Assembly: GCF_009866655.1 (NCBI RefSeq) | Contig: NZ_CP047420.1 | Location: 2,666,001 to 2,730,000 of the forward strand | Direction of reading: 5' to 3' | Source of the DNA: Rathayibacter sp. VKM Ac-2804 | GTDB lineage: Bacteria > Actinomycetota > Actinomycetes > Actinomycetales > Microbacteriaceae | DNA: 64,000 bases | Shown: piece by piece, positions 8,917 through 56,874 of the stretch | How positions within the stretch are numbered: the stretch's first letter is position 1 | How the letters are laid out: each line of letters opens with the position of its first letter | Made by a program: the position numbers and the translations under genes | Notes under the pieces: model-generated | What the model saw: the letters and a program-made list of their open reading frames with translations, nothing else | The model's database searches: none | What the model was told of the DNA's origin: nothing

Positions 8917-9044
8917 TGCTGATCGAACGACGCCAGCGCGCGCGATCGTGCTGCTCGGATGACGCCAGCCCGAGGGACCATGCTGATCAAGTCACGCGAA
9001 CGCGCACATTCATGCTGATCGAGCAGCCCGCGAAGCGGGCGTAT
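8917..9044. repeat. Degenerate 32-bp phased array with TGCTGATCGA headers
   Basis: The motif TGCTGATCGA or a one- to three-base variant starts at 8917, 8949, 8981 and 9013, exactly 32 bases apart each time. The remaining 20-22 bases of each unit are mostly unlike each other, although two units share GACGCCAGC. The fourth unit is also the left arm of the first 125-bp element. Confidence 0.7.
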
Positions 9045-9137
9045 CGAGATCCACCACTCTCCGGACAGGAGCCTGCAGACCCGCCCTGCTGAGGACGCCT
9101 GGTCTCGATACGCCCCTGCGGGGCTGCTCGACCAGCA
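9013..9137. repeat. 125-bp inverted-arm repeat, copy A
   Basis: The left arm (from TGCTGATCGAGCAGCCCGC through CGTATCGAGA) and the right arm (TCTCGATACGCCCC through GCTCGACCAGCA) are near-inverted copies of each other and flank a 45-bp centre. Nearly identical in sequence and length to copy B at 9403-9527. Confidence 0.85.
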
Positions 9138-9229
9138 GGGAGTGGCTCGGCTCCTCCCCCACTCACCATGGGGAGGCGACGCGGGACCGTCGCTCGGCGG
9201 CTCGGACGGCGTCCGCCTGGCGGGACCCG

Positions 9230-9355
9230 TGCAGATCGACTAGCGCCCTCAGGGCGCGTGTCGAGATCCACCCACGTCAGAAGACGCCGTGCGCAAACCT
9301 GCACTGCCGAGTGGCCCGAGTTCCGATACGCCCCTGCGGAGCGACTCGACCGCCA
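9230..9355. repeat. 125-bp inverted-arm repeat, degenerate copy C
   Basis: Same layout and length as copies A and B, with arms TGCAGATCGACTAGCGCCC and GATACGCCCCTGCGGAGC, but the centre and many arm positions have diverged. It looks like an older copy. Confidence 0.65.
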
Positions 9356-9402
9356 TGTCAGCGTGCCTCTGTCGAACGCCCTTGTCGGTGTGGTGTCGAT
9401 GA

Positions 9403-9527
9403 TGCTGATCGAGTAGCCCGCGAAGCGGGCGTCTCGCGATCCACCACTCTCCGGACAGGACCCTGCAGACCCGCCCTGCTGAGGACGCCTGGTCTCGATA
9501 CGCCCCTACGGGACTGCTCGACCAGCA
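9403..9527. repeat. 125-bp inverted-arm repeat, copy B
   Basis: Differs from copy A at only a handful of positions over 125 bases, including the centre (ACTCTCCGGACAGGA, GAGGACGCCTGG), which points to recent duplication or gene conversion. Confidence 0.85.
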
Positions 9528-9748
9528 GGAAGGGATCTCTGCCCTTCCGTGTTCCCCGGAACGGACGCACGCCGCCGGCTGACGCCCGTTACGGCTCCGC
9601 TCGCACCCCAGCGGCGGCGTGAGTGGACTCGGAGCGGCCTCAGGGGGGCTCATTAGAGCCCGTTTCGCGTCCGTTCGACGGCCCGACGCTCCGAGGAAGG
9701 CCGCAGACGCCCGCGCCCGCCCTGCGGGCTCCTTCGCCCCACGAGAAA

Positions 9749-18476: not shown

Positions 18477-18561
18477 GGCCGCCCCAGCCTACCGGCCGCA
18501 CTCGCGCGCTCCCCCGCGGGCGCCTCCCGCGCCGCCGACCGCGGGGACTCGATCCGTCGCC

Positions 18562-18600
18562 GGGTCTCGATGCGCCGCTGCGCGGCTACTCGACCAGCAT
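18562..18600. repeat. Single arm of the CTCGACCAGCA repeat family
   Basis: The sequence from GGGTCTCGATGCGCC to CTACTCGACCAGCA matches the right arm of the 125-bp elements at 9.0-9.5 kb. It directly precedes the 117-bp two-hairpin element. Confidence 0.7.
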
Positions 18601-18617
18601 GCACTGCGCGCGGCCCG

Positions 18618-18734
18618 AGGCGAACCGGCGATCCGCGTGCCGGCGGATCGCCGCAGCCGAACGCAGGACGCTCTGCAGAACGCGACCACCCGCACGAGCC
18701 GACCGCGGCGAGCCGGGCAGCGACCGGCTCGCAC
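18618..18734 (-). repeat. 117-bp two-hairpin element, copy 3 (after dnaE)
   Basis: Aligns without gaps to the two copies at 52.1-52.3 kb. Hairpin 1 (18627-18636 with 18643-18652, GGCGATCCGC stem) and hairpin 2 (18708-18716 with 18724-18732, GCGAGCCGG stem) differ in sequence from the other copies yet pair perfectly. The conserved centre is GACGCTCTGCAGAACGCG. The element ends six bases beyond the dnaE stop codon. Confidence 0.8.
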
Positions 18735-18740
18735 GAAGGC

Positions 18741-22253
<3,513 letters not shown>

Positions 22254-41698: not shown

Positions 41699-41806
41699 GG
41701 CGGTCCCGCCGTCCCGTTCCTGCCGTCCGATCCCCATCCAGCTCACGACCGGACACCGGGGAAGGTGCGTCCGGGCGCCGAGTGGCTGGGAGTCGCGCGG
41801 CAGGAG

Positions 41807-42238
41807 CTAGAACAGGCCGGGGATCACCTCCTCCTCGGTGTCGGAGAACACGGACTCCTGCTCGGTCAGGTAGCTGTCCCAGGCGTCCTGGGCCCAGATC
41901 TCGGCGCGATTGCCCGCACCGATGACGGTGAGGTCGCGGTCGAGACCGGCGTAGGCCCGCAGCGGCGCCGGGAGGGTGATGCGGTTCTGCTTGTCCGGCG
42001 TCTCGGCGCTGGCGCCGGAGAGGAACACGCGCAGGAAGTCGCGGGCCTGCTTGCTCGTGACGGGCGCCTGGCGGATCTTCTCGTGCATCGCCTCGAACTC
42101 GCGCTGGCTGAAGACGTAGAGGCACCGCTCCTGGCCGCGCGTGACGACGACTCCGGAGGAGAGCTCGTCGCGGAACTTGGCGGGAAGGATGACGCGGCCC
42201 TTCTCGTCGAGCTTGGGGGAATGAGTGCCGAGGAACAA
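41807..42238 (-). CDS. mraZ: Transcriptional regulator MraZ
   Basis: Protein of 143 residues, exactly the usual MraZ length, when started at TTG 42238 ([22 protein letters not shown]). Two AbrB-like SpoVT domains each carry the DxKGR-type motif (DEKGRVILP and DKQNRITLP). MraZ forms ring oligomers that bind repeated GTGGGG-type boxes and control the division cluster. A frame extension to 42310 would run through the promoter and is rejected. Confidence 0.94.
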
Positions 42239-46553: not shown

Positions 46554-46585
46554 CCGCGGAGCACTGCGGCCGAGCGCCGTCGGCA

Positions 46586-46750
46586 CGCTGGTCGAGCAGC
46601 CCCGCAGGGGCGTATCGAGACCCGCCCGTCGGACGACGGTGGATCTCGATACGCCCGCTCCGCGGACTCCTCGATCAGCATGCAGGTGCCCGCTCCGCGG
46701 GCTCCTCGATCAGCACGCAGGTGCCCGCTCAGCGGGCTCCTCGATCAGCA
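46586..46750. repeat. CTCGATCAGCA repeat cluster between convergent genes
   Basis: One inverted-arm unit (GCTGGTCGAGCAGCCCCGC ... CTCCTCGATCAGCA, 46586-46680) is followed by two direct 35-bp units (46681-46715, 46716-46750) that each end in GGGCTCCTCGATCAGCA. Related to the elements at 9.0-9.5 kb. Fills most of the gap between the kinase gene and aroG. Confidence 0.8.
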
Positions 46751-46780
46751 GGGAGCGTCCGCCGGCGAGCAGCGCGCGGC

Positions 46781-51977: not shown

Positions 51978-51990
51978 CGACTCCGCCCAC

Positions 51991-52020
51991 GCCGGCTCCG
52001 CGGGCTACTCGATCAGCATG
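51991..52020. repeat. Single arm of the CTCGATCAGCA repeat family
   Basis: The sequence from GCCGGCTCCGCGGGCTAC to CTCGATCAGCATG matches the right arms at 46.7 kb. As at 18.56 kb, it lies just left of 117-bp elements. Confidence 0.65.
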
Positions 52021-52058
52021 ATGCGCCAGCCAGCCAGAGGGCGATGGCCGAAGACCGA

Positions 52059-52175
52059 GCCGTATCCGGGAAAGCGCGTCCCAGCGCTTTCCCGTCGGCG
52101 GACGCACGACGCTCTGCGGAACGCGGCCACCTCTGAGAGCCGACCGCGCCGAGCCGGGCAGGGACCGGCTCGGAA
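52059..52175 (-). repeat. 117-bp two-hairpin element, copy 1
   Basis: Hairpin 1: 52068-52077 with 52084-52093, stem GGGAAAGCGC, loop GTCCCA. Hairpin 2: 52149-52157 with 52165-52173, stem CCGAGCCGG, loop GCAGGGA. The hairpins start 81 bases apart, as in the other copies. The conserved centre is GACGCTCTGCGGAACGCG. Confidence 0.85.
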
Positions 52176-52183
52176 TCAGCGCA

Positions 52184-52300
52184 GCCGTATCCGGCGAAGC
52201 GCGTTACAGCGCTTCGCCGTCGGCGGACGCACGACGCTCTGCGGAACGCGCCCACCTCAGGAGGCCGACCGCGCCGAGCCGGGCAGGGACCGGCTCGGAA
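52184..52300 (-). repeat. 117-bp two-hairpin element, copy 2 (after def)
   Basis: Hairpin 1: 52193-52202 with 52209-52218, stem GGCGAAGCGC, loop GTTACA. Hairpin 2: 52274-52282 with 52290-52298, stem CCGAGCCGG. It ends six bases beyond the def stop codon, the same distance as copy 3 from dnaE. Confidence 0.85.
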
Positions 52301-52306
52301 ACGAAC

Positions 52307-52798
52307 TCAGAACCAGGAGCTCTCGCGGACTTCCTTCATGGCGGCCCGCCGGTCGTCCTTGGAGAGGCGGTCGAGGTAGAGGCGGCCGTCGAGGTGGTCG
52401 CATTCGTGCTGGAGGGCCTGGGCCATCAGGCCGTCGCCCTCGAGGACGACCTCGTTGCCGTCGAGGTCGGTGCCGCGGACCTTGGCGTGCGGGTAGCGGA
52501 TCGCGGGGTACCAGAGGTTCGGCACGGAGAGGCAGCCCTCGTCGACGGGCTCGGGCTCGCCGCTGAGCTCGACGATCTCGGGGTTGAGGATGTAGCCGAC
52601 GACCCCGTCGACGTTGTAGCTGAACGCGCGGAGGTTGACACCGATCTGCGGTGCGGCGACGCCGGCGCGGCCGGGGGTGCGCACGCTGTCGACGAGGTCC
52701 TCGACCAGTCCGCGGATCCCGTCGTCGACGGTCTCGATCGGGGCGGACACCGTCTTCAGGACGGGATCGCCGAAGATGCGGATCTGGCGTTCGGTCAT
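52307..52798 (-). CDS. def: Peptide deformylase Def
   Basis: Protein of 163 residues. Motif 1 is GVAAPQIG (46-53; the usual form is GLAAPQIG), motif 2 EGCLSVP (87-93, metal ligand Cys89) and motif 3 QHECDHLDG (130-138, ligands His131 and His135, catalytic Glu132). It removes formyl groups from nascent N-termini. ATG 52798 overlaps the mycothione reductase stop by four bases. Confidence 0.95.
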
Positions 52799-56668: not shown

Positions 56669-56745
56669 GCTGTCTGCCGGGGCGGGTCCCGCCGGCATGG
56701 CGGCGTCGGACGGCGGGTCTGCAGGCGCGGCGTGGCGGGGACGGT

Positions 56746-56860
56746 GGGTCTCGATACGCCCCTTCGGGGCTACTCGACCAGCATGAGGGGCGCCGAGCGC
56801 GTGCTGCTCGACCAGCATGGGGGGCGCCGCGCGAGGGCTACTCGACCAGCATGCTGCGCG
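56746..56860. repeat. 34-bp phased CTCGACCAGCA repeats
   Basis: After an opening TCTCGATACGCCCC arm, CTCGACCAGCATG recurs at 56773, 56807 and 56841, 34 bases apart. It belongs to the same family as the repeats at 9.0, 18.6, 46.6 and 52.0 kb and again lies between convergent genes. Confidence 0.75.
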
Positions 56861-56874
56861 CGGTCGAGGGCGGG

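Follow-up and report, generated by a model that had tools for sequence, protein, structure and literature searches.

The window analysed here, a stretch of 64,000 nucleotides from the genome of Rathayibacter sp. VKM Ac-2804, a member of a plant-associated genus, contains three copies of an element of 117 bp (Table 1). All three are described on the given (+) strand, and the genes behind whose stop codons they lie are read from the opposite one: a dnaE-like gene has one copy, and the peptide deformylase gene def is followed by a tandem array of two. In each copy an outer stem enclosing hairpin 1 comes first, followed by a conserved centre and then by hairpin 2.

Table 1. The three copies, their parts and their surroundings. 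Positions are those of the window, except in the last row.
Feature	Position	Strand	Remark
Element copy 1	18618..18734	+	6 bp from the stop codon of the dnaE-like gene (- strand)
Copy 1, outer stem	18619-18621 with 18656-18658	+	fold, covariation
Copy 1, hairpin 1	18626-18636 with 18643-18653, loop 18637-18642	+	fold, covariation
Copy 1, outer stem and hairpin 1, joint span	18619..18658	+	
Copy 1, conserved centre GACGCTCTGCAGAACGCG	18667..18684	+	pattern search
Copy 1, hairpin 2	18708..18732	+	9-bp stem, loop GCAGCGA
Element copy 2	52059..52175	+	distal unit of the two-unit tandem array
Copy 2, hairpin 1	52067..52094	+	alignment, fold, covariation
Copy 2, conserved centre	52108..52125	+	pattern search
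Copy 2, hairpin 2	52149..52173	+	loop GCAGGGA
Element copy 3	52184..52300	+	proximal unit of the tandem array; 6 bp from the def stop codon (- strand)
Copy 3, hairpin 1	52192..52219	+	alignment, fold, covariation
Copy 3, conserved centre	52233..52250	+	pattern search
Copy 3, hairpin 2	52274..52298	+	loop GCAGGGA
DNA polymerase III alpha subunit gene (dnaE-like), neighbour of copy 1	18741..22253	-	match of 40 bits, below the whole-protein cut-off; the search took in only the C-terminal 119 aa
Peptide deformylase gene (def), neighbour of copy 3	52307..52798	-	
Separate REP-like palindrome	18572..18610	.	distal (hairpin 1) side of copy 1
Separate REP-like palindrome	51991..52025	.	distal side of copy 2
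Stretches with REP-like palindromes	9012-9532, 18535-18610, 46567-46757, 51989-52025, 56719-56870		
Retron-like reverse transcriptase, same genome	L212, C1:542467-543096		

An earlier sequence-only reading had described the three copies as aligning without gaps over 117 bases, and the alignment bears this out, with 117 columns and a mean column identity of 89%. The stems of hairpin 1 read as that description gave them: their right arms are complementary, and among the three copies 4 of the 10 pairs have changed on both sides. In hairpin 2 the end pair changes from C-G to G-C, again with the matching change opposite. For the centre, said to be nearly constant, a pattern search gave three exact matches, and six when up to 3 mismatches were allowed, compared with a mean of 0.94 and a maximum of 4 in shuffled sequences. 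When each copy was folded against 200 dinucleotide shuffles, z scores of -2.7 to -3.4 were obtained on the given strand and of -2.3 to -2.8 on the opposite strand, and 0 to 4 of the 200 shuffles fold as well as the copy they were made from, on either strand. The outer stem round hairpin 1, the usual position and direction relative to stop codons and the frequency of tandem arrays go beyond that first description.

A covariance model (R1) was built from 17 of the 30 copies then fetched from the same genome, picked for a regular hairpin 2. It found 46 strong copies at E ≤ 2.7e-6 and 3 weak ones in this genome (4.09 Mb), where blastn gave 49 matches at E ≤ 10, the last dozen of them chance-like. 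In the 17 copies the 24 pairs of the fold are formed in 89.9% of cells, and the covariation score is 0.473, compared with 0.153 in shuffles and at most 0.071 when the pairing partners were slid. Collecting further copies with a covariance model yielded many more, and these also covary. In 91 distinct copies from other loci, which had entered through the core pattern or as best model hits and whose alignment was fitted to the model, 92.7% of cells are paired, 21 pairs have changed on both sides, and the score is 0.560 versus 0.132 in shuffles. When every pair of columns was scored in 87 of the 91 copies, the top 16 places all went to proposed base pairs, while columns 45-95, the centre, contain none of the 45 best covarying pairs. 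Because its columns are nearly invariant, a helix within the centre drawn by RNAalifold is neither supported nor refuted by covariation. Nearly invariant, too, is the tip of hairpin 1. In 83 of 158 copies the loop between the outer stem and hairpin 1 has a side of 4 bases with A opposite, and in 37 a side of 5 bases with C opposite; these two coupled forms predominate, the remaining 38 being mixed. Counts for the tip and for the G-A apposition described below, as well as the clustering, the column-pair scan and the tandem and convergent counts, omit copies shorter than 100 nt and repeats of identical sequence. The stems are held by selection on pairing, and the centre and the tip of hairpin 1 by sequence. 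The proposal that a structure is maintained here, in RNA or as a cruciform, is thereby supported by covariation in many more copies and, as described below, across species at the same genes.

Hairpin 2 is more variable in kind. A second class, with a long loop resembling GACGACGAAGGAGGA, was seen in the position of the GCAGGGA class (L132:2055, L122:1706 and L126:1746), and some copies carry plain palindromes where a hairpin 2 of the GCAGGGA class usually sits. The pattern of the class-A hairpin has 19 matches in the genome of the window, and the reversed pattern has 8. Since 15 of the 19 (arms CCGG/CCGG or CCGC/GCGG) fall within model hits, one of these weak (E 0.003), the hairpin mostly belongs to the element, and we rejected the idea that hairpin 2 is simply the host gene's own terminator. 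The other four matches lie outside model hits, two of them with complementary arms, and in some copies other hairpin types replace the class-A hairpin 2.

The covariance model detected the element in all 15 Rathayibacter genomes, with 12 to at least 61 copies listed per genome, and in none of 45 others (22 from the same family and 23 from the same order), to which stricter filters were applied. The exact core pattern, a search that would miss distant relatives, occurs in 33 stretches among 84,980 species genomes (one each), all of them from Rathayibacter. With a second model, R2, run on the genome of the window and on 39 other genera of the family, matches at E 0.077-1 and none stronger were obtained in 15 other genomes; the best of these candidate distant relatives, at E 0.077, was judged to be due to chance. 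The element family is thus specific to the genus Rathayibacter. Tandem arrays recur within it, most unit spacings being 121-136 bp. The longer arrays include one of six units (L092:2612-3348) and one of five (L160:1999-2626), with periods of 124 and 127 bp; the units of the former differ among themselves, and three of the five units of the latter score alike.

Position and direction relative to genes were determined for 169 distinct placements. The neighbour on the hairpin 2 side faces the element with its stop codon in 141, with its start in 20, and is uncalled in 8; since genes were called by a heuristic codon-usage finder, these and the other neighbour counts are subject to some error. The facing stop codon is no more than 60 bp from hairpin 2 in 93 of the 169, within 15 bp in 54 and at 5 or 6 bp in 27; among the placements more than 100 bp away are additional units of tandem arrays. 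The hairpin 1 neighbour is stop-facing in 104 placements, yet within 60 bp in just 2. At sites between co-directional genes in the genome of the window, no next start is closer than 89 bp. A convergent neighbour is present at 58 of 88 element genes versus 34 of 104 control genes, which come from these loci and have a gap of 60 bp or more (Fisher p 6e-6), and by site type the 158 copies divide into 77 convergent, 53 tandem, 23 other and 5 unknown. The stop-facing genes form 43 groups. NCBIfam names among 20 scanned neighbour proteins include DNA polymerase III alpha (a fragment), peptide deformylase, PurH, ribosomal protein S20, nucleoside-diphosphate kinase, acetate/propionate kinase and a FabF-like synthase. 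No tRNA gene was found in seven loci around copies that lack a close stop-facing neighbour, five of them strictly such.

At two of these sites, copies that follow one and the same gene can be compared between species. Downstream of dnaE the element occurs in 10 of 15 genomes as 11 copies, with one further copy cut by a contig end. At the def locus it is present in 12 of 15 genomes as 25 copies. This set mixes orthologues with other copies: 22, counting tandem units, run in the def direction, and the other 3 face the neighbour on the opposite side. In the dnaE copies both sides have changed at 7 pairs, pairing holds in 93.6% of cells and the covariation score is 0.296 versus 0.123, with two of five measures reached by some shuffles (both-side changes by 22 of 500, further pair types by 77 of 500). 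For the def set, the corresponding values are 15 pairs, 95.8% and 0.285 versus 0.076. Since copies at both genes covary across species, the structure seems to be maintained in place at orthologous sites. Among 112 copies at shared sites, 70 have their best match at the same site in another genome; the other 42 match best elsewhere, and exchange between sites may therefore occur. One genome, G007, lacks the element on the 3' side of dnaE, and G005 and G014, whose DnaE C-terminus is identical, have it; the element is thus dispensable at single genes. As other species also carry the dnaE copy, this locus, the one element-less locus compared with relatives in a check for target sites, suggests loss rather than an empty site. 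In another genome (G001, L146), the dnaE stop codon is followed only by a sequence like a remnant of hairpin 2 and then by foreign sequence, which we take to resemble the start of an IS3-type transposase gene.

Across 136 distinct copies, hairpin 1 has 64 cells with G-T and 14 with A-C in + notation. When the 158 copies were clustered to three degrees, the ratios became 45:12, 33:11 and 20:11 (binomial p 1e-5, 0.001 and 0.15), the coarsest not being significant, and tandem sites (13:3) share the direction of the G-T excess with convergent ones (23:7). Fitting of the alignments to a + strand model may add to the bias; a MAFFT alignment shows the same direction in few cells. In the same 136 copies neither hairpin 2 (G-T 9, A-C 16) nor the outer stem (7:9) has such a bias towards the + strand. 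A G-A apposition stands atop the outer stem in 78 of 129 copies and is tied to the 4-base loop side, as C is to the 5-base side. Folding energies over the whole element favour the gene-sense strand in 110 of 158 copies and the + strand in 46, and those of the hairpin 1 and hairpin 2 ends alone favour the + strand (123 and 125 of 158). Because of the G-T over A-C bias and the common G-A apposition, the data suggest, as a lean rather than as proof, that the folded strand of hairpin 1 is the one antisense to the adjacent gene. As between RNA and DNA, the asymmetry of hairpin 1 leans towards a single folded strand. Upstream on the + strand, no enrichment of -10-like sequences was detected in 122 flanks of 200 bp (TANNNT occurs 5 times on + and 15 on -); a local promoter for a + strand transcript was thus not seen, and any + strand RNA must come from elsewhere.

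The element is accompanied by palindromes of another type. These REP-like palindromes, with the core TCTCGATACGC ... TACTCGACCAGCAT, occur, often clustered, in several intergenic stretches of the window. Their core is found within 200 bp on the hairpin 1 side in 77 of 122 flanks and never within 60 bp on the hairpin 2 side in the flanks examined. A link to a retron-like reverse transcriptase was considered and rejected. One such gene is present in 12 of the 15 Rathayibacter genomes, and two that were scanned have RT_other or RT_outgroup as their best PADLOC models. In 4 of the 12 loci, where about 1.5 kb around the gene was examined, no element was found at E < 0.18. The distributions do not match either: 3 element-bearing genomes lack the gene, and of 39 other genera, none with the element, 6 have it.

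The earlier reading had not recognised the element as a named family, and no Rfam family matches it. In Rfam 15 nothing exceeds the gathering threshold at the element; across the whole window, only the mraW RNA motif (RF01746) was matched, at 41708-41811 (-) and just above its gathering score, and at E ≤ 1 the region 51990-52320 gave two miRNA matches far below threshold. Among the literature matches listed (titles and abstract openings), no description of the element was found. Nor did a transposon end or a described REP family turn up in searches against Rfam, the Y1/RAYT transposase, plasmids and phages. The Y1/RAYT transposase (PF01797) was found in none of the 15 Rathayibacter genomes, a control being positive in 5 of 14, and mobilisation of the RAYT/REP type was rejected for this reason. 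Plasmid and phage collections gave no blastn match and viral contigs no exact core pattern, and an origin from phage or plasmid was rejected on these grounds. Terminal inverted repeats were not found in the three window copies, compared without a shuffle control: near the ends, at all offsets, the best arrangement has 11 of 15 complementary bases, and the longest shared word is 6-7.

The element very probably does something, and it probably acts in RNA as a transcription boundary. The reading that we favour, tentatively, is that of a family of cis-acting structural elements with a long history in Rathayibacter, mostly passed on by inheritance at their existing sites. Placed where transcription units have their 3' ends, the element would set an RNA-level boundary to transcription. 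In the arrangement observed, hairpin 2 usually faces the stop codon of the neighbouring gene and is followed by the centre and then by hairpin 1 with the outer stem. A polymerase coming from the antisense side, from a convergent neighbour or through spurious antisense transcription, would make + strand RNA in which hairpin 1 and the centre would fold and be met by the polymerase or by a factor. For such a polymerase hairpin 2 would be the last structure before the gene body, and, as a near-perfect palindrome, it may also set the 3' end of the sense mRNA itself. The boundary reading accounts for the position, the direction, the enrichment between convergent genes, the covariation in place and the strand lean. 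It would require + strand transcripts, for which the upstream flanks show no -10-like enrichment; against it also stand the whole-element energies, which favour the gene-sense strand (110 of 158), the missing + bias of hairpin 2, the non-significant hairpin 1 ratio at the coarsest clustering, the 20 of 169 placements that face a start and the 8 with no called gene, and the dnaE gene of G007 without an element. An extended form of this reading, which we consider improbable, holds that the element is a genus-confined class of cis-acting RNA, a direction-specific gene-end insulator that would fold in antisense RNA and stop or redirect polymerase (or Rho) before it enters a gene from behind, kept by compensatory evolution in a dozen to several dozen copies per genome behind housekeeping genes.

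Position and direction are explained equally well if the element works in the sense mRNA, as a 3'-UTR structure whose hairpin 2 ends, protects or processes the message or slows terminating ribosomes, the centre and hairpin 1 being a factor site of the same mRNA. For ribosome stalling there is a precedent in E. coli, where REPs at most 15 nt from a stop codon are reported to have this effect (PMC12306157); here 54 of the 141 stop-facing placements have hairpin 2 within 15 bp of the stop codon. A hairpin of at least 8 bp occurs in the first 60 nt past the stop codon in 63 of 88 element genes versus 22 of 104 controls, and three species without a full def element (L159, L162 and L163) still have, as judged by eye, a hairpin behind def. 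The greater stability of the gene-sense strand over the whole element points the same way. The asymmetry of hairpin 1 is what the sense reading does not explain: G-T is tolerated over A-C on the + strand, the opposite of what selection on sense RNA would give, and the G-A apposition becomes a C-U mismatch on the sense strand. Moreover, few element genes (7 of 88, versus 1 of 104 controls) have a site like an intrinsic terminator, with a hairpin and then a T run within 60 nt past the stop codon, and a species without the element behind dnaE (L148) shows, by eye, no hairpin there. We regard this sense-strand function as somewhat unlikely. Dispersal and folding of a single strand would both follow if the element were instead mobile but non-autonomous, in the manner of a REP or a MITE, travelling as a folded strand with a preference for gene ends, its fold being needed for mobilisation and most copies now being resident. 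Its 12 to at least 61 listed copies per genome, the tandem arrays with most spacings at 121-136 bp, the single-strand bias of hairpin 1, which fits an ssDNA hairpin, and the 42 shared-site copies with a best match away from their own site agree with this. It does not explain why copies behind one gene covary in place, and the 70 copies whose best match lies at the corresponding site of another genome, the lack of the Y1 transposase in 15 of 15 genomes, of plasmid, phage or viral-contig matches and of terminal inverted repeats in the window copies make mobility an unlikely account. Very unlikely, in our estimate, is a structure acting at the DNA level, a cruciform or a site for a nucleoid or topology protein that would relieve supercoiling between convergent genes. 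The convergent enrichment, the strand-neutral hairpin 2 and the palindromic stems fit it, but the asymmetric hairpin 1 and the coupled internal loop are unexpected for a symmetric duplex site, and about a third of the copies (53 tandem of 158) lie between genes of the same direction. If the boundary reading is true, a high-G+C actinobacterium would possess an insulator of gene ends that is natural and directional and directly testable by reporter assays; a simple scan suggests that U-run terminators are rare in this host.

Several known systems resemble the element in part. Like intrinsic (Rho-independent) terminators it places a G+C-rich hairpin past the stop codon at the ends of transcription units, but it has in addition a large conserved centre and a second hairpin. 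With the REP/BIME sequences of enterobacteria it shares the form of dispersed intergenic palindromes, some just past stop codons, and the placement near gene 3' ends (93 of 169 within 60 bp of a facing stop codon). REPs are short palindromes of conserved sequence with a GTAG-type 5' tetranucleotide, whereas the stems of the element are not conserved in sequence. At about 117 nt, with two different hairpins, a conserved centre, a preferred direction and stem letters that vary, it is unlike REP/BIME, and these pair with RAYT (Y1) transposases, of which none was found in the genus. RIME1 of rhizobia, which measures about 108 bp, lies between genes and contains two large palindromes, is alike by description in location, palindromes and size; the exact core pattern of the element was found solely in Rathayibacter among the 84,980 species genomes, in a search that would miss distant relatives. 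MIRU of Mycobacterium tuberculosis are short oriented repeats at gene ends with a variable tandem number, and the element, again compared by description only, shares these traits; we know of no covarying two-hairpin fold in MIRU. The element is a variant of the interspersed gene-end palindromes. Bacterial palindromes of this kind are often taken as selfish or incidental, partly because copies share their sequence and structural selection is hard to see; here such selection is measurable, because the stems diverge without losing their pairing, and do so at orthologous sites of different species too.
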